From the NCBI GenBank assembly GCA_023255875.1, contig JAGDVY010000013.1:1-54001 (forward strand): a stretch of 54,001 bases of DNA. Reading direction: 5' to 3'. The number at the start of each line of letters is the position of its first letter. Position 1 is the first letter of the stretch. The DNA is from Hydrogenobacter sp. (GTDB lineage Bacteria; Aquificota; Aquificia; Aquificales; Aquificaceae). Positions 4,518-42,541 of this stretch are shown in pieces. Both the position numbers and the translations under genes were made by a program. Under the pieces are notes generated by a model. It saw only the letters and a program-made list of their open reading frames with translations. It made no database searches and had not been told where the DNA came from.

Positions 4518-6085
4518 TGGAAGAAAAACCACTTTATGAGATCCTTAGCACTGGCGAGAGAGTAATTCTGACCTTTTCCCTGATGCTGGGTGTATTTATG
4601 GCTATACTGGACACAACCATAGTGGACACAGTAGTTCCCAAGATGATGGCACCCCTCAGCACAGACCTTTATGGTGTCCAGTGGGTGATCACTTCCTATA
4701 TGATGTCTGCTGCAGTTGGCATCCTCCTTGTTGAGAGCTTGGAGAGAGTTCTTGGTCTAAAGAAGGTGTTTGTGGGTGGTCTGTTTCTCTTTGTGATAGC
4801 TTCCTTTCTTTCTGGACAGGCACAGAGCCTTGATTGGATGATAAGTAGCAGGTCCCTTCAGGGTCTTGGAGAGGCTTTGATAGTTGTGAGTGCAGAGGCA
4901 CTTCTATTTAGTGCGTACCCTCCAGAGAAGCGCGGGCTTGCCATGGGTATATACGGACTTGGTGTGAGCTTTGCACCAGCTTTGGGTCCCACCTTGGGTG
5001 GATACATAACCGAACACATAAACTGGCGATGGATATTCTACATAAATGTTCCTGTTGGTGTCTTAAACCTGGCTCTAAGTATTTTCTTCCTGCCAGAATA
5101 TAAGCCTCAAAACACTCACGGCAGATTTAACTTTTTATCTTTCCTCTTTTTATCGTGCGCTACCATTTCTTTACTAATAACCCTCAGCAAGGGACAGCAG
5201 TTGGGCTGGTTTAGTTCAGACTTCATACTCTACACATCTCTCATATGCGTCTTTTCCTTCCTTTTATTCCTCCTTTCTGAACTCTCCTCAAAGCATCCCC
5301 TCATTGACCCTTCCATATTCCGCATAAAGGAGTTTGTGGTGGCAATTACAGTGTATTGCTTTTTGCTTGGCTTTTCCATGTACCAAGTGTTTTACCTCAT
5401 ACCCCTATATTACGAAAACCTAAAGCTCGTGGGCACTTTTCAGACAGGCATACACATACTCCCTCTGGCTCTTGCCATAGGCCTCTCCTCTCCCATAGCG
5501 GGCATCTTAGGAGATAAAAAGTCTGAGCTTTTGTCTTTGAGTGTTGCGGTTGCCTTTTACCTCTCTTCTGCCTTCTTATTGCTTCCTACCCTAAACTACT
5601 TTACGCCTGCTTGGGAAGCCTCCCTTAAAATGATCCCGCTGGGCATAGGCATGGGCTTTTTTTTCGCTCCCATTACTAACCTTGCCCTCAAAAAGCTCGG
5701 AGATAAGACCACGCTGGGGGTTAGCCTTATGCACTACATTAGGTTTGTAGGTGGTTCCTTTGGTACCGCTCTTGCCACCAACGACCTTCAGCGCTATATG
5801 TGGGAGAACTTCAGCAGAACCAACGAAATACAAAGCTACAGTTCCGTTGTGTCTTACCTTGAGAGGCTCTACAGCACCCTTATGCCCTTTGTGCATAACT
5901 ACGAGAACAAAGCTAAAGCTTTCTTTTATGGGATAGAGCAGGTTTATGCTTACTCTGATGCCTTTAGCACTACCTTTCTATATGCTGGTTTTTGGGGACT
6001 TTTGGGAGCAATGCCCATCTTTTACCTGCTTTTGGAGTTCTCTTACAGAAGGATGTCAAGATGGTCTGGTTCTACACGCTCCTGA
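4517..6085 (+). CDS. DHA2-family MFS drug transporter (EmrB-like), copy 1
   Basis: A 522-residue, roughly 14-helix membrane protein of the DHA2 drug:proton antiporter family. It has the early motif 'FMAILDTTIVDTVVPKM' (motif D1 region of helix 1), 'GLGEALIVVSAEALLF', and the helix-5 motif C version 'GLGVSFAPALGPTLGGYI'. It would be the inner-membrane pump of an EmrAB-TolC machine. Its ATG shares its A with the last base of the emrA-like gene. A second homologous transporter starts before this one ends. Confidence 0.92.
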   Translation: MEEKPLYEILSTGERVILTFSLMLGVFMAILDTTIVDTVVPKMMAPLSTDLYGVQWVITSYMMSAAVGILLVESLERVLGLKKVFVGGLFLFVIASFLSGQAQSLDWMISSRSLQGLGEALIVVSAEALLFSAYPPEKRGLAMGIYGLGVSFAPALGPTLGGYITEHINWRWIFYINVPVGVLNLALSIFFLPEYKPQNTHGRFNFLSFLFLSCATISLLITLSKGQQLGWFSSDFILYTSLICVFSFLLFLLSELSSKHPLIDPSIFRIKEFVVAITVYCFLLGFSMYQVFYLIPLYYENLKLVGTFQTGIHILPLALAIGLSSPIAGILGDKKSELLSLSVAVAFYLSSAFLLLPTLNYFTPAWEASLKMIPLGIGMGFFFAPITNLALKKLGDKTTLGVSLMHYIRFVGGSFGTALATNDLQRYMWENFSRTNEIQSYSSVVSYLERLYSTLMPFVHNYENKAKAFFYGIEQVYAYSDAFSTTFLYAGFWGLLGAMPIFYLLLEFSYRRMSRWSGSTRS

Positions 6086-7551
6086 TAGTCCTTGGGACCT
6101 TTCTGGCGGTTCTTGGTATAACAAGCACCAACGTAGCCATTCCCAAGATGATCGCACCTTTGCAGACAGACATATACGGCATTGAGTGGGTGCCCATAAG
6201 CTACATAACCGCCACTGCCATAACTATAATAGCCTTCAACTCAATAAGCTCTCGCCTTGGCCTTAAGAAAACCTACCTTATAGGTTTGGCTACCTTTAGC
6301 TTAGGCAGTGCTCTCTCAGGACAGGCAGGAAGCCTCGAAGAGATGATAGTATTTAGATTTCTGCAGGGTATAGGAGAAGGACTTTTAATACCCTCCTCTC
6401 AAGCCATACTCTTTAACCTCTTTCCACCAGAGAGAAGGGGCACCGCTATGGGCTTTTATGCTATGGCGGTAGCCTTTGCACCAGGGCTTGGTCCCACGGT
6501 GGGTGGATACATGGTAGAGTACTTCTCTTGGCGTTGGATATTCTACATGAACGTTCCTGTGGTGGTGATCCTCCTGCCAGTAGCTTACTTTATGCTCCCA
6601 GAGATAGGAAACAGGGCAAAAGTACCCTTTAACCTACCAAGCTTTGTGTTCCTGTCCATATCATCCATATCTTTTATAGTGTTTCTCTCCAAAGGAGAGA
6701 GCTGGGGCTGGTTTTATTCTATGAAAACCTTTGTAGCCTTCTGCGTTGCGGTTTTCTCCTTCTTGCTTTTTGTACTCTCAGAGCTTTTGGGAAAGAACAA
6801 ACTCATAGACTACTCCATCTTTAAAGAACCCAACTACCTTTACGCCGTAATAACCTTTGTCACCATATACGGCTTTGTGTTCTTCCAAGTTATATACATC
6901 ATGCCCATATACCTTGAGAGCCTAAAGAATGTACCTACCTTTCAGGCTGGTCTAACCTTTTTGTGGTACGCCTTTTTGCTTGCCACCTTTGCTCTGATAG
7001 GAGGAAGGCTGAGCGACAGGATAGAGCCCAAGCTTCTCTTGCTTATTTCCCAGAGCGTGCTGTTTTTGACTCTATTTTTCTTTCTGTCTCACATAGACTA
7101 CTACACTCCCAGATGGAAAGTGGCTTTTTTTCTTTGCTTTGTAGGTATGGCTATGGGCTTTTTCTTTGCACCCCTTACCGCTCTTGCCTTTAAGAGCCTA
7201 AAGCCTCAACAGATACCCATTGGCACAGCCCTTTACAACTACGCAAGGCTCATGGGAGCTTCCATAGCCACATCTCTGGCAACCTACACCTTAGAAACCA
7301 GAAGAGCTTTACACTTTGATGAGATAAACAGCATAAGAGCGGTCCTGAGTTCCAAGTATTCTATGGTTCTTGCGCAGAAGACTTCCGGACTTGACGCCTT
7401 CAGGTACAAAGTGGTTATTGGACAGTTCCAAAACATCATAGCAGGTACGTACGCAGTCCAAGACGCTCTCAGAATGGCTTCCTACATAAGCCTCTTGAGT
7501 ATATTAATAACCCTTACCTTTCTCTTTATCACCAACAGAAAAAAGGCTTAG
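6061..7551 (+). CDS. DHA2-family MFS drug transporter (EmrB-like), copy 2
   Basis: A 496-residue paralogue of the preceding transporter, with about 14 hydrophobic helices and the same signatures ('TSTNVAIPKMIAPLQTD', 'AVAFAPGLGPTVGGYM'). I chose the ATG at 6061 because it starts right before the first membrane helix. A longer frame opens at 5992 but would only add residues read out of frame from copy 1. The gene overlaps copy 1 by 25 bp. It has no adaptor of its own, so it probably shares the EmrA-like protein, or the two pumps work as alternatives or partners. The stop is followed after one base by convergent nrdB. Confidence 0.9.
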   Translation: MVWFYTLLIVLGTFLAVLGITSTNVAIPKMIAPLQTDIYGIEWVPISYITATAITIIAFNSISSRLGLKKTYLIGLATFSLGSALSGQAGSLEEMIVFRFLQGIGEGLLIPSSQAILFNLFPPERRGTAMGFYAMAVAFAPGLGPTVGGYMVEYFSWRWIFYMNVPVVVILLPVAYFMLPEIGNRAKVPFNLPSFVFLSISSISFIVFLSKGESWGWFYSMKTFVAFCVAVFSFLLFVLSELLGKNKLIDYSIFKEPNYLYAVITFVTIYGFVFFQVIYIMPIYLESLKNVPTFQAGLTFLWYAFLLATFALIGGRLSDRIEPKLLLLISQSVLFLTLFFFLSHIDYYTPRWKVAFFLCFVGMAMGFFFAPLTALAFKSLKPQQIPIGTALYNYARLMGASIATSLATYTLETRRALHFDEINSIRAVLSSKYSMVLAQKTSGLDAFRYKVVIGQFQNIIAGTYAVQDALRMASYISLLSILITLTFLFITNRKKA

Positions 7552-7552
7552 G

Positions 7553-8581
7553 CTACCACCTTAGCTCGCTTCTTTTTGCGTAGGTCTGGGGCTTTGCTTG
7601 GAAGAAGTCCGTTTTAGTGTCGTTTATGGTCCTAAACTGGTCTATCCACTTCATAGGGTTCTCAGTTATGTTGGGATAAAGAGGTTTGTATCCAAGTTGG
7701 GTAAGCCTTAGGTTGGCAAGATACTTTATGTACCTGTCTATAAGCGTGTTGTTTATACCAAGTATCTGGTTCTGAGTCACATACTGACCCCACTTGATCT
7801 CCGCATCCACCGCATACTTGAAAAACTCATACACCCACTTTTCCATCTCTGGACTAAACAGCTCTGGGTTTTCTTCCTTTAGAGTGAGGATAATGTTCCT
7901 AAAGAGGGTCACATGGGTAAGCTCATCCCTGTTTATGTACTTTATCTGCTGTACTGTATTTCTCATCTTTCCCTGTCTTCCCAGTGTGTAAAAGAAAGCA
8001 AAGCCAGAATAGAAGTAGAGGCTCTCAAGCACATAGTTGCCAAAGACTGCCTTTATAAAGTTCTCTTCCGTTGGCTTTCTTATAAACTCGTTGTATAGGT
8101 CCGCTATTACCCTGTTGCGTTCCATCAAAACCTCGTCCTGACGCCAATAGTTATATATCTCGTCTGCCTTTATGGGGTCTACTACACTCTCAAGTATGAA
8201 CTGGTAAGAGTAAGAGTGGAGAGCTTCCTGAAACTCTTGTGCAGTTATTGCCATCTGAAGTTCCGGTGCGGTAATATAGCGCGCAAACTCCTTTAAGTTC
8301 ACCACCTGGAAGCTATCAAGTGCTATCAGAAAGCTAAGCACAAGCTCGTAGGCTCTTTTTTCGTACGGAGAGAGCTCTTTTTCGTACTGCTTTCTGTCCT
8401 CCTGCATGGGTATCTCTTCTGGAATCCAAAAGTTGGTAAAACCCATGGTTTTGTATAGATCAAAAGCCCATGGGTATTTTATGTTGTTTAGCTCCATTAT
8501 GTTGGTGGAGTTTCCTTTTATGATCCTTCTGTTGCTTGCTGACCTTTCACCTTCTGGATTGAAGATAAGGGTTCTATTCAT
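7553..8581 (-). CDS. nrdB: Ribonucleoside-diphosphate reductase, beta subunit
   Basis: A 342-residue R2 subunit carrying the diiron centre and radical site of class I ribonucleotide reductase, which makes deoxyribonucleotides. Visible iron-ligand motifs are 'ITAQEFQEALHSYSYQFI' (ExxH) and 'INRDELTHVTLFRN' (second ExxH). The stretch 'LYFYSGFAFFY' is the region that normally holds the radical tyrosine. The C-terminus ends in aromatic residues, as needed for docking to NrdA. It lies 14 bp downstream of nrdA on the same strand and is co-transcribed with it. No intein interrupts the gene. Confidence 0.95.
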   Translation of the reverse strand: MNRTLIFNPEGERSASNRRIIKGNSTNIMELNNIKYPWAFDLYKTMGFTNFWIPEEIPMQEDRKQYEKELSPYEKRAYELVLSFLIALDSFQVVNLKEFARYITAPELQMAITAQEFQEALHSYSYQFILESVVDPIKADEIYNYWRQDEVLMERNRVIADLYNEFIRKPTEENFIKAVFGNYVLESLYFYSGFAFFYTLGRQGKMRNTVQQIKYINRDELTHVTLFRNIILTLKEENPELFSPEMEKWVYEFFKYAVDAEIKWGQYVTQNQILGINNTLIDRYIKYLANLRLTQLGYKPLYPNITENPMKWIDQFRTINDTKTDFFQAKPQTYAKRSELRW

Positions 8582-8595
8582 GGGCTCTAACCTCC

Positions 8596-10899
8596 TTAAG
8601 TGCTACAGCTTTCGCACTCTTCAATTTCTGTTAAACTTCTGCTTCTACAGTAATAGACAGTCTTTAGTCCCAGCTCCCAGGCAAGTTCGTAAAGCCTTGA
8701 GAGCTTAGGTCCATCTATATGCTCGGGATCTATATATAAGTTTAGACTTTGCGCCTGATCTATCCACTTTTGTCTTTCTGCTGCCGCCCTTATGATCCAC
8801 TCCTGATCTATCGCATAAGCGGATTTATAGTGCCAGAAGTATTTGTCAATTTCGGGTGGCACCTGTGGAAGTATGCCTGACATGTTCTCTTCTTTGTAAT
8901 ATTTTGCGAATATGGGGTCTATGGAAGGTGTGGCACCCACTATTAGTGAAGTGCTACCTGTTGGCATAAGCGCCAAAAGGTAAGCATTACGCAAGCCGTA
9001 TTTTTTGACCTCCTCCGCAAGGCCTATCCAATCCAGATTATTCCCATTCTGCTCAGATAGTCTTTGGTTTTCCTCCGCGGATCTGCCAAAGAATATGCCC
9101 TTGCTCCAGTCAGAGCCCTCAAAGAGCTCATATTTGCCCCTTTCCTTTGCAAGCTCCATAGAACCTTTTATGGCATAGTAGGCTATTCTTTCAAAGAGAG
9201 AGTTTGCAAACCTAAGGTGCTCCTCTGACTCCCAGATGATGTTGTTTTTCACAAGGCAGTAGTGGTAATTGCTAACACCTATGCCTATAGCCCTGTAGCG
9301 TCTGTTTGTATATTCTGCCTCTTTTATAGCGTAGTAGTTCATGGAGATCACGTTGTCCAACATGCGCACCAAAAGGGGTACAACTCTCTCAAGGTCCGCT
9401 TTTTCATAAACCTTTCCAAGGTTTATAGAGCCAAGATTACACACCACCACATCTCCAGACTTCTTTCTGTGGGTTATCAAGCCCGTTGATGGGTCCAAAG
9501 AGTCCTCTACATGCTGGCTTATGGACATGTTTTGGATTATCTCATGGCAAAGGTTAGAAGAGTAAACCATACCGCAGTGCTTGTTGGGATTTAACCTATT
9601 GGCAGTGTCCCTAAAGAAGATGTAAGGCTCTCCAGTCTCAAACACTACAGTAAGAAGCCTCTTCCAAAGCTCAAAGGCGTCCACCTCCTTTTTCGCTTCT
9701 GGGGGCAATTCCCTCTCAAGCCTCTGATAGACCTCCTCAAACTCCTCACCATACAGGTCTTCTAAGTTCTTTCCGTCCTTCACATTCTTGCAGTAATAGG
9801 GATCAAAGAGCGTCCACTTTTGTCTGTTTTTGAGCCTCTTCATGAAAAGGTCTGGTATGGATATGGCAGGATGTATGTCATGAGCCTTTTTGCGCTCATC
9901 ACCCACGTTTGTCTTTACCTCAAGGAAGTCAAGCACATCTTTGTGCCATATGTCAAGGGTTATGCTTGCAGAACCTTTTCTCATCCCAAGCTGATCCACA
10001 TACACCATAACATCGTTGATTATTTTGACAACCGGAAGCACTCCTGAGCTGGCACCTTTGAACTTCCTGATGGGTGCACCCGTTGCCCTTATCTTTCCAA
10101 GATATATACCAAGACCACCTGCAAACTTGGATATCTGTCCTGCCTTTTGTACATTGTCAAAGATGTCATAAAGATCATCATCCACCGTCAGAACAAAGCA
10201 TGAAGATAGCTGTGTGTGTGGCCTTCTTGCGTTCATGAGCGTGGGAGTTGCCAAAGATATTTCGTGTTTTGACATAAGGTCATAAAAGATCTTTGCGTAC
10301 TTTATCCTATCTTCCTTTTTCTCTGGTATGGCAAGGGTCATGGCAATAAGCATGTACATCTCTTGAGGAAGCTCTATAACATTGCCCTCTTCGTTCCTCA
10401 CAAGATACCTATCGTAAAGCACCTTTATGCCCGTGTAGTTAAAAAGAAGGTCCCTGTTTGGGTCTATGTACTTGGCTAATGTGTCAAAATCCTCTTTGGA
10501 GTACTCTCTCAAAAGGTACTCTCCGTATATGCCCCTCTCTGTGTAGGTTTTGACAAGTTGGAAAAAACTATCTGGGTTATAGGGTTTGTATCTGCCGTTT
10601 ATTTTGTCCTTGACTTTATATCCCCTTACGTGTCCCACATCCTTATAAAGGTCATAAAGGAGAAGTCTTGCTGCCACATACTGCCAATCGGGACTCTGTG
10701 GAGACACCTTTTCCGCAGCAGTTCTTATGAGGAGCTGTTGGATCTCTTTTGTGGTTATGCCTTCCCTGAACTGAATGTGGGCATCTGCCTCAAGCTCAAG
10801 AGGGTCAACCCTCAACCCTTTGCAGGCAAAGTCTATAACTATACGTATCTTGGATATATCCATAGGCTCTTTAGTGCCACTTCTTTTTACCACATACAT
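8596..10899 (-). CDS. nrdA: Ribonucleoside-diphosphate reductase, alpha subunit
   Basis: A 767-residue catalytic R1 subunit. It has an N-terminal ATP-cone (about residues 1-90, '[16 protein letters not shown]') for allosteric control and a ten-stranded barrel. The '[12 protein letters not shown]' cysteine, the 'SSNLCHEI' region, 'YSSNLC' and '[21 protein letters not shown]' are canonical. The C-terminal tail ends with a Cys-x2-Cys pair ('ECESCST') that shuttles electrons from a thioredoxin-like reductant. No intein is seen. It is followed directly by nrdB. The 150-bp gap upstream to secD contains a weak AT-rich hairpin but no NrdR boxes that I could recognise. Confidence 0.96.
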
Positions 10900-11049
10900 G
10901 ACCTTTCCCTCTCGTAGGTTGATATAGGTGAAAAAATGTTAGACCAATAAGATCAGAGAGTCAAACTTTTGGAGGATTATACTACAAGCAAAACTAAGCA
11001 GGGTAAAAAGATTCCAAAAAAACGGAGTTTTTAGGATCTCTTACAGATG

Positions 11050-12543
11050 CTATATCTTAAGCAGGTTGAACTTTGTGAGAACATCAAGGAAGAACTTAGC
11101 AAAATACACGTTGGATATAAAGGATGCTATGCTACCTATGGTAAGGGTTGTGGCAAAACCTTTGACGGGCCCACTTCCAAATTGGAAAAGGATCAGGGCA
11201 GCTATAAGTAGAGTTATGTGGGTGTCCCACACGACGCTAAGAGATCTTCTGTATCCAAGCTCTACAGCTTTTCTGGGAGTGTTTCCCGCTCTTAGCTCTT
11301 CTTTTACCCTTTCAAATATGAGCACATTAGAATCAACTGCTATACCCATGTTTAGCAAGATACCAGCTATGCCCGGCAGGGTGAGAGTAGCTCCAACAAG
11401 CACAAGACCTGTCCACAAAAGCAATGCGTTTAAAATTATGGAAAGGTTTGCTGTTATACCCGCTATTTTGTATCTTGCCAACAGTAATGCAACTAAAAGA
11501 ACAAAAGCCAGTATGCCACCCTTTATGCTCTGATTTATGGCATCTCTTCCCAAAGAAGGTCCCACAACAGTCTCTTGGAGAAACTTTACATTGGTAGGTA
11601 AAGCACCTGCCCTGAGAACTATGGCAAGCTCTTTGGCTTCTTCGGGAGTGAACTGTCCTGTTATCTGCCCCCTATCTGTTATCCTGCTTCTTATTACGGG
11701 AGCGGACATGACTTTTTTGTCAAGGACTATGGCAAGACGCCTGCCTATGTTTTTTTCTGTTGCATCTCCAAAAAGCTTTGCCCCTCTGTCTGTGAGCTCA
11801 AAAGTCACCGAAGGAGCGCCAAATTCGTCCGTACTTGTGTATGCGGTCTTTAGGTCTGCGCCCGTGATCACAGGCACTTTTTCCACTAAAAACCACTCCT
11901 GAGGATCTTTAGAGGGTAAAAGTTCCGTATCCTTAGTTAGCTTTTTCTCAAGCACCTCTTTAGGACCACTCTCCACAACGAGTTTGAGTTCAAGAAGTGC
12001 TGTTTTTCCTATAATGGACTTTGCTCTATCTATGTCCAAAACACCAGGAAGCTCTACAAGCACTCTGTCTTGACCCACCTTAGTTATAACAGGCTGGACC
12101 ACACCCAGCTCATCTATCCTTCTTCTTAGCACTTCAACCGTCTGTCCTACTATACTTTCCTTTAGCTTATTTATTTCTTCCTCTTTGAGTCTTATTAGAG
12201 GCTCACTTTTGTTGGTGCTTACCACTACAAAACGAGGAAAGTCCTTTTGTATAACCTGCGCCACTTTTTGTGTGTCATTCTTATCAAGAAGTTCTACCCT
12301 TATACCATCTTTTTGAACTACAGTGTCAAGCACCTTTATATTTGCGTTTCTTAACTTTTCCTCTATATCCTTTGCGTACCTTTCATACTCTTGGTTAAGC
12401 GCATACTCCATATCTGGTTCTAAAAGCATGGATATACCGCCCCTCAGGTCTAAGCCTAAATTAACGGGTTTTAAAAAAGATACCGCTAAGGAAAGCGCTA
12501 CAAGAAGCACAAGAGTAAAGAGGTTAAGGTAGAAGTTTCTCAT
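11050..12543 (-). CDS. secD: Protein translocase subunit SecD
   Basis: A 497-residue RND-superfamily subunit of the Sec accessory complex, which uses the proton gradient to help pull proteins across the inner membrane. One N-terminal helix is followed by 'LGLDLRGGISMLLEPDM' (the D1 motif), a large periplasmic P1 region and five C-terminal helices. 'GIAGILLNMGIAVDSNVLIFERVKEE' type motifs mark the SecD-SecF core. secF and yajC, frequent neighbours, are not in the window; nrdA follows instead. It starts 11 bp after waaA on the same strand. Confidence 0.95.
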   Translation of the reverse strand: MRNFYLNLFTLVLLVALSLAVSFLKPVNLGLDLRGGISMLLEPDMEYALNQEYERYAKDIEEKLRNANIKVLDTVVQKDGIRVELLDKNDTQKVAQVIQKDFPRFVVVSTNKSEPLIRLKEEEINKLKESIVGQTVEVLRRRIDELGVVQPVITKVGQDRVLVELPGVLDIDRAKSIIGKTALLELKLVVESGPKEVLEKKLTKDTELLPSKDPQEWFLVEKVPVITGADLKTAYTSTDEFGAPSVTFELTDRGAKLFGDATEKNIGRRLAIVLDKKVMSAPVIRSRITDRGQITGQFTPEEAKELAIVLRAGALPTNVKFLQETVVGPSLGRDAINQSIKGGILAFVLLVALLLARYKIAGITANLSIILNALLLWTGLVLVGATLTLPGIAGILLNMGIAVDSNVLIFERVKEELRAGNTPRKAVELGYRRSLSVVWDTHITLLIAALILFQFGSGPVKGFATTLTIGSIASFISNVYFAKFFLDVLTKFNLLKI

Positions 12544-12554
12544 ACTGCCAAAAA

Positions 12555-13574
12555 TTATAGCATGCTCTTTATATTTCTAAGGTAGCATTCCCTTATCCTT
12601 TCTGCTTCCTCCTTTATGTCCAGCGCATTCCATAACCTAATACCTGTTAGTATGTCCTTCACAGTTCTCACCATATCCTTTGAGTCCTTAACCAAAAAGC
12701 CTGCGTTCCTCTCAAGTAGGTAATCTGCCATGTCCTTTGTCTTTTCTATGTGGGGTCCAAAAAGGACAGGTTTTCCATGATAGGCAGGCTCTAATAGGTT
12801 GTGCCCACCTACTTTTACAAGGGTCCCACCTACAAAAGCTATGTCCGCAAAGGAATAAAGTTCAAATAACTCTCCCAATGTATCAAGTATGAGAACGTCC
12901 CAATTCTCTTCTTGAGTGGTCCTCAGAGAACACCTAAAGTCTTTTATCCTTTCCATAATCTCTTTGGCTCTTGAGATGTGGCGTGGAGCTATAATGAGTT
13001 TTAGTTCAGGAAAGGTCTTTTTTAGCTCTCTGAAGGCTTCAAGGATGATCTCCTCTTCTCCTTTGTGGGTGCTCCCTGCAATGAAAAATTTGGAACTACC
13101 TTTGTTTATATTTAACTGTTTGCGTGGAACCTCCATTATAAACTTTAGATTACCGCAATTTACAACCTTTTTAACTCTGTAGGACTCAAACCTCTCTTTA
13201 TCCTTTTGAGTTTTAGTAATGATGAGATCAAACCTTCTGCTTATAAATCTCTCGTACGTACCACCCTTTGCGTAAGCGTTTATCAGGACTTTTTTAGCTT
13301 TGGTGGAACATATGAGAAAGGGCCAAAGTTCTCTTTCTACGATCACAAGCAATTGTGCGGATATGCGTTTTTCAAAGCGTCTTACAGTAAAAGGTGTGTC
13401 TAAGGGTAATCTTTCTAAAGCATGGTAATACGCAGATTGCTTGCTTAGGTAATCCTTGGCTCTTGGTGAGAAGTATGTAAGAACTATACGGTAGTCTTTT
13501 ATGAGCTCTTTGAGAAGTGGTCTTACTGTATTAAACTCTCCTACGCTGGCTGTGTGAAACCAGAGGGTTTTCAT
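12555..13574 (-). CDS. waaA: 3-deoxy-D-manno-octulosonic acid (KDO) transferase
   Basis: A 339-residue GT-B glycosyltransferase (GT30) that adds KDO to lipid A during lipopolysaccharide assembly at the inner membrane. Key motifs are 'FHTASVGEFNTVRPLL' near the N-terminus (catalytic Glu), 'VERELWPFLI', 'AGSTHKGEEEIIL' and 'FVGGTLVKVGGHNLLEPAYHGKPVLFGPH'. It is shorter than proteobacterial WaaA because it lacks the N-terminal membrane anchor, as the Aquifex aeolicus enzyme does. It overlaps the upstream YkuK-like gene by 4 bp. It connects functionally with kdsC (KDO-8-phosphate phosphatase), about 30 kb away. Confidence 0.93.
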   Translation of the reverse strand: MKTLWFHTASVGEFNTVRPLLKELIKDYRIVLTYFSPRAKDYLSKQSAYYHALERLPLDTPFTVRRFEKRISAQLLVIVERELWPFLICSTKAKKVLINAYAKGGTYERFISRRFDLIITKTQKDKERFESYRVKKVVNCGNLKFIMEVPRKQLNINKGSSKFFIAGSTHKGEEEIILEAFRELKKTFPELKLIIAPRHISRAKEIMERIKDFRCSLRTTQEENWDVLILDTLGELFELYSFADIAFVGGTLVKVGGHNLLEPAYHGKPVLFGPHIEKTKDMADYLLERNAGFLVKDSKDMVRTVKDILTGIRLWNALDIKEEAERIRECYLRNIKSML

Positions 13575-14017
13575 ACAAAGCTTGCGTTTGTTATGTAATC
13601 CGCCACGGTAGTTGCTGCGATGGATTTGGGCTTTACCACAGGCTTTAAGCCCTGTGCCAAGACATAACCTACCGCCTCTTTGAGAATTACACTAGAATGG
13701 TGTTCAGGATTAGGGTTTATGTCCAGATGCACCTCAAAAGGTCTATTTCCCACCACATTTGCTATTTCAAGAGCCATAAAAACCGCCCTGCTTACCTCTT
13801 CCATAAGCCTCTGTCTTAAGGATCGTATTCTATTTACCTTTTCAACGCGCCAAAAGATTTTTGCTCCCCTACACCCATCTATATGCACTACCACCACTGT
13901 AACAAAAACAGTTTTCTCCCTCACCTGTCTTGAATCACAACCCACGTAAATAGCGGTTTTCTCTGATGTGCTTTTTATAAACTCTTTTACCTCCTCCACA
14001 TCTTTTATGGCAGGCAT
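13571..14017 (-). CDS. YkuK/DUF458-family RNase H-like protein
   Basis: A 148-residue protein matching the YkuK-type family with a predicted RNase H-like fold: 'AIYVGCDSRQ' and a later 'VHLDINPNPEHHSSVILKEAVGYV'. The acidic residues Asp (GCDSR), Asp (HLDIN) and the C-terminal Asp (VADYI) could form a metal site. I chose the ATG at 14017, which sits 9 nt after a GGAGGGG ribosome-binding site, over an in-frame TTG at 14038 that overlaps the upstream gene. The biochemical function of the family is not known to me. Confidence 0.75.
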   Translation of the reverse strand: MPAIKDVEEVKEFIKSTSEKTAIYVGCDSRQVREKTVFVTVVVVHIDGCRGAKIFWRVEKVNRIRSLRQRLMEEVSRAVFMALEIANVVGNRPFEVHLDINPNPEHHSSVILKEAVGYVLAQGLKPVVKPKSIAATTVADYITNASFV

Positions 14018-14021
14018 AGGC

Positions 14022-14348
14022 TTACACCCCTCCGCCAAAATCTACATTTTTTACCCAACTGGGTCTAAAGAATATCCAATCTTTTAGGTTTTCAAAGCTT
14101 TTGGAATAACAAACCTCACAGAGCAATCCCTTGTCCGTTAGCTTGGAGTTGTCATCACAGCATTCGTTCAAGTTCCAAAATTCGTAATTATCATGAAAAA
14201 CAAGCTTCCCGCACCCAATACACTCATAAAGGGTATATCCTTTTGATTGAAGAAAAGAAGAAAGGTCCTCGTTTTCAGGCAAGTCCTCAAGTTCTAACAC
14301 TCTCTTTAGAAACTCCTTTTGCTTTTGCGTAAGCTCTTTTATCTCCAT
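14022..14348 (-). CDS. Small zinc-ribbon-like protein of unknown function
   Basis: A 108-residue protein that I do not recognise. A charged helical N-terminus (about residues 1-30) is followed by a Cys-x2-Cys ('ECIGCGK'), a Cys-Cys pair ('NECCDD') and another Cys-x2-Cys ('CEVC'). This spacing suggests a zinc ribbon. The C-terminus is aromatic and ends in Gly-Gly-Gly-Val. Its stop codon lies 4 bp before the chosen YkuK-like start, so the two are probably cotranslated. Confidence 0.65.
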   Translation of the reverse strand: MEIKELTQKQKEFLKRVLELEDLPENEDLSSFLQSKGYTLYECIGCGKLVFHDNYEFWNLNECCDDNSKLTDKGLLCEVCYSKSFENLKDWIFFRPSWVKNVDFGGGV

Positions 14349-14357
14349 CAGTTAAAA

Positions 14358-14573
14358 TTATACATACTTACATACTAAAGCACTCTCAGTGGAAAAGCCC
14401 TGAGTTTTTAATATAAGAGCGGTCATGTAAGCATCTTCTAAAGGGGAGTGATGGGAGCTTGAAGGTATTCCAAGAGCGGAAAGTAAGCTCTCCATATTAG
14501 AAACTCTCTCTCCTCTGTATAGATCAAGCACATCAATAAAATAAGGTAAAAAGGTAGTGGGAGCATCCTCCAA
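14358..14573 (-). pseudogene. C-terminal remnant of a DnaQ-like 3'-5' exonuclease
   Basis: The frame encodes about 72 residues resembling only the end of a DEDD exonuclease. 'NMESLLSALGIPSSSHHSPLEDAYMTALI' type signal includes the Exo III His-x4-Asp motif. The N-terminal Exo I (Asp-x-Glu) and Exo II motifs are missing. There is no ATG; only a TTG at 14573 is available, and an in-frame stop lies at 14613-14615 with no good start between. The 3' end of the DUF485 gene (14596) occupies the place where the missing half should be. In other bacteria, for example Pseudomonas aeruginosa PA3232-PA3235, DUF485, a solute symporter, a DUF294 protein and an exonuclease are neighbours, so this looks like a deletion scar. 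A short translated protein cannot be excluded. Confidence 0.6.
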
Positions 14574-14595
14574 AATAGACAGATAATCAAAACTA

Positions 14596-14769
14596 TCACC
14601 TTGCCTTATTTTTTATCTCCTCTACCGCCTTGTCATAAAAAGAGTTTGTCCAAAACACATAAACTCCCGTTAATAACCAAGAAAGTACTATTATGGCAAT
14701 ACCAATGGGTATGCCTACTGTTCCAAACAAAAACAATTGACAAAAGTCATAGCTTTTTGTAAAACTCAC
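14596..14769 (-). CDS. DUF485 (YjcH-like) small membrane protein, short form
   Basis: A 57-residue protein starting with GTG at 14767-14769, which overlaps the recR stop codon (GTGA arrangement). It has one strong transmembrane helix, 'GIPIGIAIIVLSWLLTGVYV', followed by 'WTNSFYDKAVEEI'. This matches the second helix and tail of E. coli YjcH ('GIPIGIGVIVISFVLTGIYI...AN..FD'). The first helix of the usual roughly 100-residue family is absent, so it is either naturally short or N-terminally truncated. YjcH-type genes normally precede an acetate/solute symporter (ActP); none follows here. The gene is too short for usual gene-length cut-offs. Confidence 0.65.
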   Translation of the reverse strand: MSFTKSYDFCQLFLFGTVGIPIGIAIIVLSWLLTGVYVFWTNSFYDKAVEEIKNKAR

Positions 14770-15374
14770 TTTCTGTTTTCTAAGGATTTTTCAAGGGAAA
14801 TTTCGTCTGCAAACTCAATGAAACTGCCAAACTGCAGTCCATAGGATATTCTTGTTACCTTCAGATAGGGAAATTGTTTTTTTAGTAGTTTTATAATGTA
14901 ATTGGCTGTTGCTTCACCCTCCACGTTTGGATTGGTTGCTATTATAACTTCTTTAGGTTTGTATATCTCTATTCTTTCAAGGAGTTTATCTATGCTAAGG
15001 TCCTGTACGGATATGCCCTCCAGAGGTGCTATCCTGCCACCTAAGACGTGATAAACACCTGTGTATCTTTCAAGCTTTTCTATAGCGTAAGCGTCCTGAG
15101 ACTCCTCAACCACGCATATGAACTTTTTACTGCGTTTGCTGTCAGAGCATATGGCGCACACATCTCTGTCTGTTAGTATCCCACATTCAGAACAATTTTT
15201 AATACTTTTTACCAAGTTTTGAAGGGTTTCCACTATAAGGGTCCTATCCTCAGGTGGAACTTTAAGAAGGTTATAAACAAACCTGCTTGCACCTCTTTCG
15301 CCGTAAGTGGGTATTTTGGTTATACTCTCTATGGCTTCTTTGATGGGCTTTGGGAAGACATCTTCAAAAGCCAA
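14766..15374 (-). CDS. recR: Recombination protein RecR
   Basis: A 202-residue RecR, which works with RecF and RecO to load RecA at gaps. Domain order is an N-terminal helix-hairpin-helix ('ITKIPTYGERGASRFVYNLL'), a Cys4 zinc finger ('CSECGILTDRDVCAIC', about residues 57-72), then a Toprim domain starting 'KFICVVEESQDAYAIE' and containing 'EVIIATNPNVEGEATANYI'. Length is standard. Its TGA stop overlaps the GTG of the downstream DUF485 gene. It is preceded by the inositol-phosphate synthase gene with an 18-bp gap. Confidence 0.96.
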   Translation of the reverse strand: MAFEDVFPKPIKEAIESITKIPTYGERGASRFVYNLLKVPPEDRTLIVETLQNLVKSIKNCSECGILTDRDVCAICSDSKRSKKFICVVEESQDAYAIEKLERYTGVYHVLGGRIAPLEGISVQDLSIDKLLERIEIYKPKEVIIATNPNVEGEATANYIIKLLKKQFPYLKVTRISYGLQFGSFIEFADEISLEKSLENRK

Positions 15375-39397: not shown

Positions 39398-39470
39398 CTG
39401 GGGTGCCTGGACTCGAACCAGGAGCCCCCGGATCCAAAGTCCGGTGCTCTGCCAGTTGAGCTACACCCCA
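39398..39470 (-). tRNA. tRNA-Gln (TTG)
   Basis: A 73-nt cloverleaf on the minus strand. Acceptor TGGGGTG pairs with CACCCCA; anticodon stem CCGGA/TCCGG surrounds loop CTTTGGA, giving anticodon TTG; the T arm carries GGTTCGAGTCC. Discriminator G; CCA not encoded. The first 10 bases of the tRNA contain the TAG stop codon of ispE, so the gene for the tRNA overlaps the upstream coding region. Confidence 0.94.
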
Positions 39471-40288
39471 TTATAGCTTCTAACTTGATAAAGCCTCCAT
39501 CCGCGCAAAAGGGCACCTTTTTTTACCTCTTCCGATGCCTCACCTATATAAAATATACAAGAACCACTTCCACTTACCATAGGTCTGTATCCCAAATGCT
39601 CAACAAATCTATAAACCTCTCTCATCTCAGGAAAGAGCTCCATAGCGAGCTCTCCCAAACGGTTCTCCAAAACCTCAAACCTACCTTCTAATACACTCTG
39701 TATTATTTTATCACTATCCAAGTTAGGTGTCAATGATGTATGACTAACCATGGAGTAAACCCTGCGCGTGCTTACCTGAAGATTTGGGTATATGAGCGTG
39801 ATCTTTAAATCCACATGTCTAATAGGTTCTATCTTTTCTCCTCTACCTCTACCCACTGCGGTACCACCATATAGGAAAAATACAGCATCAGAAGACACAC
39901 TTTGGGCTATCTCTTTTAGCTCTTCTATGCTTAGAGGCTCACCCAACAAACTGTTTATGGCTTTTAACACCACAGCGCAGTTGGACGACCCACCACCCAA
40001 TCCAGCACCCTGTGGTATGTTCTTGTGGATATACACGCTAAACTCCAGCTCTTTACCCAAGCGCCTTTCCATAAGCCTAAGAGCCTTATAAACAAGGTTT
40101 TCCTCTTGTGGTATGTTATTGCTCGTTTCCACTTTTAGAGGACCTTCTTTTATAAACACCTCGTCAAACAATGAAACAGCATGATATATGGTGAATATCT
40201 CATGATAGCCATCATCTCTCTTTCCCAAAAGCCACAACCCAAGGTTCACCTTTGCAGGGGAAAGAAGTTTTACCACAAATTTACTCAT
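39461..40288 (-). CDS. ispE: 4-diphosphocytidyl-2-C-methyl-D-erythritol kinase
   Basis: A 275-residue GHMP kinase of the MEP isoprenoid pathway. Motifs: 'LSPAKVNLGLWLLGKRDDGYHE' at the start, the ATP-binding 'NIPQGAGLGGGSSNCAVVL' and 'MVSGSGSCIFYIG' near the C-terminus. The last 10 bases overlap the 5' end of tRNA-Gln. The start at 40288 is divergent from the cas6 remnant across 21 bp. Confidence 0.95.
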   Translation of the reverse strand: MSKFVVKLLSPAKVNLGLWLLGKRDDGYHEIFTIYHAVSLFDEVFIKEGPLKVETSNNIPQEENLVYKALRLMERRLGKELEFSVYIHKNIPQGAGLGGGSSNCAVVLKAINSLLGEPLSIEELKEIAQSVSSDAVFFLYGGTAVGRGRGEKIEPIRHVDLKITLIYPNLQVSTRRVYSMVSHTSLTPNLDSDKIIQSVLEGRFEVLENRLGELAMELFPEMREVYRFVEHLGYRPMVSGSGSCIFYIGEASEEVKKGALLRGWRLYQVRSYNGV

Positions 40289-40309: not shown

Positions 40310-41054
40310 ATGATACTTAGAATAACCCTCTCCGCAGAAGATAATATACGCCTTCCTAAAAGTTATAACCATTATCTGCAAGCCTTTTTCTACAAAAACA
40401 TGGATCCCATACTTTCCAATTTTCTCCACAACATAGGGTTTGTTTATAACAAAAGAAGGTTTAAGCTATTCACTTTTTCCAAAATAATAGGTAAAATAAT
40501 AAAAAAGGAAGGAGATTTCATAGTTTTTGATAACAACATTACTGTTTATTTTGCATCACCTTTGATAGATATAGTTTCCTCTTCTGTAAAAAATCTTATA
40601 AAAAACGATGAACTTTTCCTTGTAAATAACAAGCTGTATTTGAATTCTGTAGATGTAATAAAGCCAGAAATTAAACAAGAGGATATTATCGTAAGGTGTC
40701 TATCGCCTATAACTGTATATACAACTCCTTTGGGACAAAGAAGGTTTCAATATCTCAATCCGTGGGACGAAAAATTCTATCAGATCATCAAAGATAACCT
40801 GCTTAAGAAGTATGAAATTATTTATTTATAGTAGGTCCTACAGAGGGGAGCTACAGGTGGAACCCGTAAAGATATGTCAGAAGTACAAGAAAAAGGTAGT
40901 TTATAGAAAAACATTAATAGAGGCATGGGAAGGATACTACAGGATAAAGGGAAGCAAGGAGATTTTAAAGCTTGCTTTGGAAGCAGGCTTAGGTGCAAAA
41001 AACCCACAAGGATTTGGTATGGTGGAGGTAGTAAAAAATGTTGAAAGCTCTTAG
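40310..41054 (+). pseudogene. cas6: cas6 CRISPR endoribonuclease, frameshifted by a 4-bp tandem duplication
   Basis: Two frames together make a full Cas6. The first (40310-40831, 173 residues) has the N-terminal ferredoxin-like domain ('IRLPKSYNHYLQAFFY', 'RRFKLFTFSKI', and a candidate catalytic His in 'NFLHNIGF'). The second (to 41054) carries the C-terminal glycine-rich RNA-binding loop 'GLGAKNPQGFGMVEV'. The break lies at three tandem TTAT units (40818-40829). Deleting one unit restores 'KKYEIIYSRSYRGELQ' and a continuous 246-residue protein. The frame is +1 shifted, so a truncated protein without the RNA-binding loop is expected, unless slippage restores it. Confidence 0.85.
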
Positions 41055-41211
41055 AGATATAGGAGAGCTGTATGGAAAAATAGAGATTTACGATCCTGTA
41101 GAAGCTGAAGAAGTATTAATTCTGGAGTTTGACAAAGACGGAAATTTTATAAAAGTAGATTTAGAGGAATTTTCAAAAGGAAACCTCATTTCTTTAAAAA
41201 ATTGCATCTAA
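41038..41211 (+). pseudogene. N-terminal stub of a type I-B large subunit (Csh1/Cas8-like)
   Basis: An ATG at 41038, overlapping the 3' end of cas6 by 17 bp, opens a frame of 57 residues ending at TAA 41209-41211. The sequence 'MLKALRDIGELYGKIEIYD' followed by 'VLILEFDKDGNFIKVDLEEF' resembles the start of TM1802/Csh1-type Cas8b proteins, which are normally several hundred residues long. Position right after cas6 fits a type I-B operon. The rest of the gene and all of cas7, cas5, cas3, cas4, cas1 and cas2 are absent from the window. Family assignment from only 57 residues is tentative. Confidence 0.55.
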
Positions 41212-41229
41212 ACAAAGAATGACAAGCAT

Positions 41230-41281
41230 CTGTCTATCTCCAGGGTTTTTGTGAGATTGGAGGTCGACAGGAAATTTTTTT
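41230..41281 (+). terminator. Hairpin with T-tract after the cas remnant
   Basis: A 13-position stem (CTGTC.ATCTCCA pairs with TGGAGGT.GACAG, one T-C mismatch and one G-T wobble) spans 41230-41270 with a 15-base loop. It is followed by a seven-T run at 41275-41281. It has the shape of an intrinsic terminator closing the former cas operon before the CRISPR leader promoter. Confidence 0.6.
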
Positions 41282-41284
41282 CAC

Positions 41285-41313
41285 TTGACACACATGAGTT
41301 TTGGGTATATTAT
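41285..41313 (+). promoter_or_regulatory. CRISPR leader promoter
   Basis: TTGACA (41285-41290) is followed by exactly 17 bp and TATTAT (41308-41313), an almost perfect sigma-70 promoter. It points rightward towards the solitary CRISPR repeat about 60 bp downstream. Transcription would start near 41320, run through the leader and repeat and continue antisense to coaBC. No coding frame follows, so a leader function is the natural reading. Confidence 0.75.
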
Positions 41314-41372
41314 TAGCATAGCCATATGGCCGTAGAACTTGACAACTGAATATGTTTTGGCGATCCTTTGGG

Positions 41373-41402
41373 GTTTATTAGGTACCTATAAGGAGTTGAA
41401 AC
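41373..41402 (+). CRISPR. Solitary 30-bp CRISPR repeat (spacerless array)
   Basis: The 30 bases start GTTTATTAGGTACCTA and end TAAGGAGTTGAAAC. This matches type I-B repeats of thermophiles, which share the core GTACCTAT-AGG and the 3' GTTGAAAC/ATTGAAAC that becomes the crRNA 5' handle. It contains the palindrome AGGTACCT (41380-41387). The orientation agrees with the upstream promoter and cas6. No second copy follows within reach, so this is an array with no spacers. The first of its bases used by coaBC is 41378; the repeat encodes the last residues of that protein. Confidence 0.72.
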
Positions 41403-42541
41403 ACTCTATTTACTATGGTTTCTGCGGAGATCTGCTTTTGTGTGAGCTCTATCTGTTCCTCTCTACCATCTGCATAGAGTATGTATCCTTTGTGAAACTC
41501 CCTATCCATGACCTCTAAAGGATTAGCTATTAGCATGTCAAGGTTTTTTCTTCTTAGTTTTTCCCAGCTGTTTTTCAAAAGCTCCTTCTCCTCCTCAAGG
41601 GAAAAGCCTATTAAAAGCTTTCCTCTCTTGTTCTTTCCAAGCTCTTCAAGGATGTCTGGTGTTTTTATAAGCTCAAGGTTTATCCTTTCTGTTTTTTTTA
41701 TCTTACCTGTATATTTCATAGCAGGAGTGTAGTCCGAAACAGCTGAATTCATAACAATTATGTCAGCCCAATCTCTTAGCTCCATCACTTTCTGGTACAT
41801 GTCCTGTGTGGATACTACTCTGTGTATCTCAACTTCTGGGGGTTCTTCCGCTGTGGTAAAGCCAGCTATTACTTTCACATCCGCACCGTACCATCTAAAG
41901 GCGCTTGCTAAGGCAAAGCCCATTTTACCGCTGGAGGAGTTAGATATAAAACGCACTTGGTCTATGTATTCCCTTGTGGCACCGCACGTGATGAGGACCT
42001 TTTTGTTTTTTAGGGGTTTTGGTCTTGTTGCGTACTCTATCCAATCAAGAATTCTCTTTTCGCTTGCGAGCTTTCCCTGTCCCTCTTCTTCACAGACAAG
42101 CTTTCCCTCTTCTGGTTCTATAATAATGTGTCCCAAAGACTTTAGCTTTTCTGTGTGTTCCTTTACGATGGGGTTTGTGTACATGGAAACGTTTCCTGCT
42201 GGTGCTATTAGAAGCTTGCCAGTGTATGCAAGAACGGTAGACGTAAGAAGGTTATCACCTATCCCAAGGGCTATCTTGGATAGTGTGTTTATACTGCAGG
42301 GAGCTATAAGGAAAACATCGCACCATCTTGCGAGGTTTATGTGCGCCAAAGGGTCATCTTCCCACTGGGAATAAACTTTATTACCACTTAGAGCTTCAAA
42401 GGTGAGCTTGCTTATAAACTTTTCGGAAAAGGGGGTCATGATAACTTTCACTTGGTAGTTCTTTTTCCGCAGGGACCTTATTATGTCACAAACTTTGTAT
42501 ATGGCAATGCTCGAAGATACACCAATGAGAACTTTTGTCAT
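41378..42541 (-). CDS. coaBC: Bifunctional phosphopantothenoylcysteine decarboxylase / phosphopantothenate-cysteine ligase
   Basis: A 387-residue fusion for coenzyme A synthesis. CoaC part (about 1-180): '[18 protein letters not shown]', catalytic His in '[11 protein letters not shown]', flavin-binding '[21 protein letters not shown]', Cys of the substrate clamp in '[10 protein letters not shown]'. CoaB part (from about 183): '[20 protein letters not shown]' and '[10 protein letters not shown]'. In the usual PxMNxxMW motif, Met is replaced by Gly and Trp by Tyr ('[11 protein letters not shown]'). The last codons ('FQLLIGT') and the stop lie inside a CRISPR repeat. It overlaps kdsC by 4 bp. 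Confidence 0.93.

Follow-up and report, generated by a model that had tools for sequence, protein, structure and literature searches.

A CRISPR repeat codes for the end of CoaBC in a Hydrogenobacter genome, probably through rearrangement at a decaying type I-B locus

How does a CRISPR repeat come to encode the last residues of a core enzyme, and does the enzyme suffer from it? The question is raised by the coaBC gene (41378..42541, minus strand, 387 aa) in the window, which covers positions 1-54,001 of the 63,436-base contig C42 in a Hydrogenobacter genome (G000; 1.25 Mb, 42 contigs). A full-length, 30-nt CRISPR repeat, the sole one at the locus, lies at 41373..41402 (plus strand) and reads GTTTATTAGGTACCTATAAGGAGTTGAAAC; its reverse complement gives FQLLIGT and a TAA stop, which is the end of CoaBC. 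The final 25 bases of coaBC (41378..41402, minus strand) are within the repeat and comprise the last base of a valine codon, the seven codons for FQLLIGT and the TAA. The preliminary description had read these residues and the stop from the minus strand of the repeat, and the translation agrees, 41378-41402 being the exact part of the repeat inside the gene.

On sequence grounds, the element at 41373-41402 is a true CRISPR repeat, because its copies form arrays in the congener G002, the same leader precedes it and a near-identical copy is found on contig C18 of G000. The two G002 arrays of this repeat type have 10 and 7 repeats counted, and the repeat is likewise shared with the C18 array, where the closest G000 copy differs at 2 of 30 positions. 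The leader adjoins the repeat directly: the core of the leader occupies 41217..41372 (plus strand), with sequence common to some leader copies from 41188, and the stretch 41190-41402, over its full length of 213 bases, matches the beginning of a G002 array (leader and first repeat) with 94% identity. No second copy with 3 or fewer mismatches was found in the whole window; an array is made of at least two direct repeats with spacers, so the window locus with its single repeat is no array by itself. A chance likeness, for which just the short length speaks, is extremely improbable: 30 of 30 repeat positions agree with the leader attached, none of 100 shuffled windows had a match to the repeat, and the relatives lack this CoaBC ending. 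We rejected chance similarity on the shuffles and on the differing tails of the relatives.

The comparison with relatives located the border of the replaced sequence. CoaBC matches were detected in 60 of the 61 genomes searched and 30 loci were stored, of which 28 sequences entered the tail alignment (L029 and L030 were omitted, L030 being cut by a contig end). A contig scan of named relatives gave five CoaBC loci, the nearest from a Hydrogenobacter MAG with 86% CoaBC identity; no second assembly of the same species was found among these five, and a search of a plasmid collection gave no match. Four congeners (G001, G002, G003 and G004) were used for the comparison with G000. In blastn against the window, the coaBC regions of G002 and G001 both stop at 41403, the first base past the repeat, and those of the more distant G004 and G003 end at 41421 and 41444. 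Base by base, G000 and G002 share 54 of 60 bases on the coaBC side of the repeat border and 9 of 25 beyond it (46 of 60 and 5 of 25 for G000 and G001), and G001 and G002 are identical to one another at 16 of the first 18 bases beyond the border position. By these alignments, the native coaBC end is kept in G001 and G002 and is replaced only in G000. The junction at 41402..41403 is blunt, with no microhomology or filler found between the repeat and coaBC. The FQLLIGT tail is absent from all other 27 aligned CoaBC sequences. The preliminary description had proposed to check whether the CoaBC C-termini diverge exactly at the repeat border, which holds for G001 and G002, and had named relatives with the same ending as the observation that would speak against it; none of the 27 other homologs has that ending. 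Its central claim, that a CRISPR repeat supplies the last residues and stop of CoaBC, thus stands on both the translation and the end of homology at the border.

Could the join be false, a chimera that the assembly produced at a leader or repeat present in several copies? A search for the leader listed ten matches in G000, namely the window, a second repeat on C18 and eight further leader copies (C38, C18, C3, C6, C25, C9, C13, C11), these eight each lying at a contig end; the assembly was thus broken by arrays. In a survey of both ends of all 42 contigs, 11 of the 84 carried leader, repeat or trailer sequence. Against a chimera, the overlaps between contig ends (C18/C25, C18/C9, C3/C13, C6/C11) are exactly 55 bases long, which suggests k = 55, and the longest identical run between the window leader region and the eight other copies is 47 bases. 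Since 47 is below the suggested k, the path through the window leader and repeat should be unambiguous. The coaBC tail is also in frame, with its stop inside the repeat, and we consider a chimera very unlikely.

The sequence on the other side of the leader is a decayed type I-B locus. The G002 locus is intact, in the order cas6-csh1-csh2-cas5-cas3-leader-array, and the window locus shares with it the leader, the repeat type, cas6 and the start of csh1. Unlike the G002 locus, that of the window has a frameshifted cas6 (40310..41050, plus strand; first frame to 40831, match in a second frame at 40830-41027), a csh1 (cas8b) stub of 57 codons that runs into leader-side sequence (41038..41211, plus strand), no csh2, cas5 or cas3, and one repeat. 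About 5.9 kb of the G002 locus (the rest of csh1, csh2, cas5, cas3) is gone between csh1 and the leader, and of the intact cas8b/csh1, cas7, cas5 and cas3 that mark type I-B, G000 has the csh1 stub only. The cas1 of a type I-B system had no match in G000 either, in a search where 30 of 41 genomes had one. The csh1-leader join carries an 8-base filler (41180-41187, GAAACCTC), which matches, perhaps coincidentally, the last repeat bases and first spacer bases of the C18 array. Upstream of cas6 is an ispE-like GHMP kinase gene (39461..40288, minus strand). G002 has its own ispE-like gene elsewhere and keeps about 40 bases of an ispE-like 5' end upstream of its cas6; by this scar, the ispE-like gene beside cas6 is an old arrangement.

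The former neighbour of coaBC was traced as well. ARAGORN placed tRNA-Pro(CGG) after coaBC in G002, G003 and G004; no tRNA was found there in G001, where the contig ends soon past coaBC. G000 has tRNA-Pro(CGG)-moaE-moaA behind spoT on contig C39 (the names moaE, moaA and spoT are assigned from the translations), and the sequence behind spoT differs from this arrangement in all four congeners. The survival of the tRNA behind spoT argues that an inversion or translocation took part. One deletion of the whole stretch from the array start to coaBC, as the preliminary description proposed, would account for the missing spacers, and a deletion did occur on the other side of the leader, from csh1 to cas3. 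Such a deletion would have removed tRNA-Pro unless it had moved earlier; tRNA-Pro(CGG)-moaE-moaA persists on C39, so the order was changed and not merely shortened, and the clear deletion is elsewhere, at the csh1-leader join. We therefore reject a single deletion as the sufficient cause, since the former coaBC neighbour persists in G000, and regard one simple deletion as quite unlikely.

We suggest, with a probability of about 80%, that a rearrangement at a dying type I-B CRISPR locus joined the array end to coaBC, that the array collapsed and that the new tail was tolerated. A dying type I-B locus in Hydrogenobacter or a close lineage would have become a rearrangement breakpoint. The CRISPR locus would first have stood beside the ispE-like gene, its array end then being joined to the 3' end of coaBC and tRNA-Pro(CGG), the old coaBC neighbour, being displaced elsewhere. 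Recombination between repeats would most likely have reduced the array to the leader and a single repeat, and the csh1-to-cas3 part of the cas operon would have been lost in a separate deletion. The join would have removed the last native coaBC codons, so that the frame enters the repeat and gains seven codons and TAA. Blocks of duplicated spacers in the G004 array point to recombination among repeats within this genus, and a collapse with the last repeat already touching coaBC would explain the exact repeat border. None of the relatives examined showed an intermediate state with spacers still in front of coaBC. The terminal repeats of five readable arrays (of this type, C18 and the two of G002; of the other type, C11 and C13) miss their last one to four bases; the window repeat is complete and so may not be a collapsed terminal repeat.

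The exactness of the border bears on two other routes to the same join. By the first, a chance break at the repeat end would have been followed by end joining that fused leader and repeat to coaBC in one step, with no array collapse. The 8-base filler at the nearby csh1-leader join resembles end joining, and gene order around both spoT and the ispE-like gene varies among the congeners; against this, a break exactly at a repeat end is expected by chance about 1 time in 67 (unit of about 67 bases: repeat 30 plus commonest spacer 37) and the repeat-coaBC join shows no microhomology or filler, so that this route is possible but doubtful. By the second, a self-targeting spacer from the 3' end of coaBC would have stood beside the first repeat, and recombination with coaBC would have fused leader and repeat to the gene. 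This predicts a blunt junction exactly at the repeat-spacer border, which at random has the same chance of about 1 in 67, and the window repeat is complete; in the part of the source available, a hot-spring Hydrogenobacter population is described as recombining at a high rate and as having the most self-targeting spacers (PMC9039060). It requires recombination over about 37 bases, and its reciprocal product, a coaBC stub beside tRNA-Pro, is not seen behind spoT. None of 57 spacers matched the examined loci outside arrays at the threshold used, bar one 22-base partial match in the window far from coaBC, and none matched coaBC. We consider the self-targeting route improbable, and the joining of the array end to coaBC followed by array collapse is preferred.

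Is the enzyme still under selection with its new end? CoaBC matches the NCBIfam model TIGR00521 over residues 3-380 with 395 bits (cut-off 220), so it belongs to the family, and the match stops immediately before the repeat-coded part. Both Pfam domains are present and end at residue 350. For codons 1-380, dN/dS is 0.095 against G002 and 0.088 against G001 (a simple Nei-Gojobori count, which pools selection before and after the junction event). Beyond the aligned break position, tail length ranges from 4 to 12 residues in the 28 homologs and is 7 in G000. An AlphaFold model made with a six-sequence alignment has a mean pLDDT of 86.7 (76 in the final block); its last helix is predicted to span 369-386, the repeat-coded residues extending that helix. 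The new tail would therefore belong to a C-terminal helix that is variable and not part of the matched catalytic domains, and the gene would have kept working. The variation in homolog tails and the low dN/dS suggest that the repeat-coded tail is probably neutral and harmless, and the freedom of the CoaBC tail to vary would explain why the rearrangement was tolerated.

The leader now faces coaBC, and the preliminary description expected its promoter to fire antisense RNA into the gene. A promoter-like site, TTGACA-17-TATTAT (41285..41313, plus strand), points into coaBC. With 1.7 sites of this kind expected at random in the scan, the motif by itself does not exceed chance; of nine aligned leader copies, two end before this stretch and the other seven all keep TTGACA, and the window copy has a 2-base deletion within the promoter-like spacer. 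Upstream, a hairpin followed by a T run (41230..41280, plus strand) is a possible terminator of the cas operon; it is indicated by folding alone (-17.2 kcal/mol, z -2.69), the consensus scan giving no intrinsic terminator. From these features, antisense RNA from the leader into coaBC is plausible, and the locus potentially offers a natural setting for testing if a gene can be silenced by a leader promoter that has come to face it.

G000 keeps a type III-A operon with Csm1-Csm5 and a Cas6 that scores below the family cut-off (L136, G000:C2:14000-33000, 8558-15029), so array RNA may still be used. This operon of Csm1 to Csm5 and Cas6 coexists with the absent Cas1 match in the same genome. A leader transcript could then act as a one-repeat guide RNA, predicted to consist of the 5' tag GUUGAAAC followed by coaBC antisense, which would pair with coaBC mRNA and direct the type III-A complex to trim that mRNA, as a brake on coaBC. 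In its favour are the Csm1-5 and Cas6 genes, the promoter-like site in a leader that faces coaBC, and the matching anti-tag that coaBC mRNA would bear, which blocks Cas10 by the rule given in the available part of PMC11040160. The low score of the Cas6 and the absent second repeat speak against such a guide, and the low-cost neutral reading suffices; we regard the brake as highly improbable.

Other arrays of G000 show a similar relation to gene ends. One leader is common to two repeat types. On C6 (L078), a GFO/IDH-type oxidoreductase gene (5362-6144) has its TGA stop and the preceding codon in the CRISPR leader, the core of which starts at 6139; the 3' end differs in relatives, and the leader begins about 10 bases past the end of the oxidoreductase homology to them. 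One EamA gene, represented by C3 (L077, 1-250) and C13 (L081, 5600-6094), is interrupted by a leader, five repeats and a trailer: the left flank of the C3 leader and the right flank of the C13 array are parts of one gene, the two contigs being linked by a 55-mer that both contain and by the EamA gene itself. This gene is whole in G002 (141-aa frame), and G001 has the same sequence order with no array; the G000 copy misses about 110 bases at the array and has another gap near the gene start. On C18, homology to relatives begins only about 345 bases past the last repeat. Array-adjoining sequence is thus unshared with relatives at 4 of 4 sites tested (C42, C6, C3/C13, C18), from which the G000 arrays appear to sit at recent breakpoints or to have moved. 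The flank of the C11 array was unmatched in those parts of G002 and G001 that were compared.

To our knowledge, it is not well understood how arrays spread within a genome. CRISPR modules of leader, repeats and trailer may move as units and land in or at gene ends, producing CRISPR-derived ends; coaBC (repeat), the GFO/IDH-type oxidoreductase (leader) and EamA (divided by an array absent from two relatives) would fit this, which we hold as a tentative and rather unlikely reading. The trailers after the last repeats of three arrays are alike (L082 on C11, about 125-230; L081 on C13, about 5620-5750; L145 on C1, 1-130), which would fit the copying of leader, repeats and trailer together as a single module. 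If modules move, pairs with empty sites would make array spread testable.

Gene 3' ends can be replaced by insertion sequences or other repeats. The G000 cases are similar in that foreign DNA gives the last codons and the stop, and differ in the donor, a CRISPR repeat or leader and not a transposon. In Thermotogales, CRISPR loci were reportedly found at the endpoints of chromosomal inversions by DeBoy et al. in 2006. G000 is like that case in having arrays where gene order changed between close relatives; unlike there, the G000 breakpoint falls within a core gene, part of which the repeat now encodes. The available part of a study on Aquificales describes multiple dispersed CRISPR clusters, one to thirteen per genome (PMC4227106), and G000 resembles them, as far as that part goes, in its several small arrays, some with no adjoining cas genes; the G000 arrays also change gene ends, and such arrays are not discussed for the clusters in that part of the source. 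A literature search, covering mostly titles and abstract openings, gave no paper on a CRISPR repeat that codes for the end of a housekeeping protein. The repeat would have become core-enzyme coding sequence after the split from a relative with 94% identical CoaBC. The coaBC case alone is a curiosity, and of more interest is the pattern repeated across the G000 arrays: the relatives lack these array sites, which gives pairs of filled and empty sites for the study of array dispersal and its collateral damage.

A MITE-like dispersed repeat of about 50-85 bases was also observed beside the C38 leader (L076, about 5865-5950) and near the ends of C33, C16, C24, C18, C42, C4, C19, C26 and C14.
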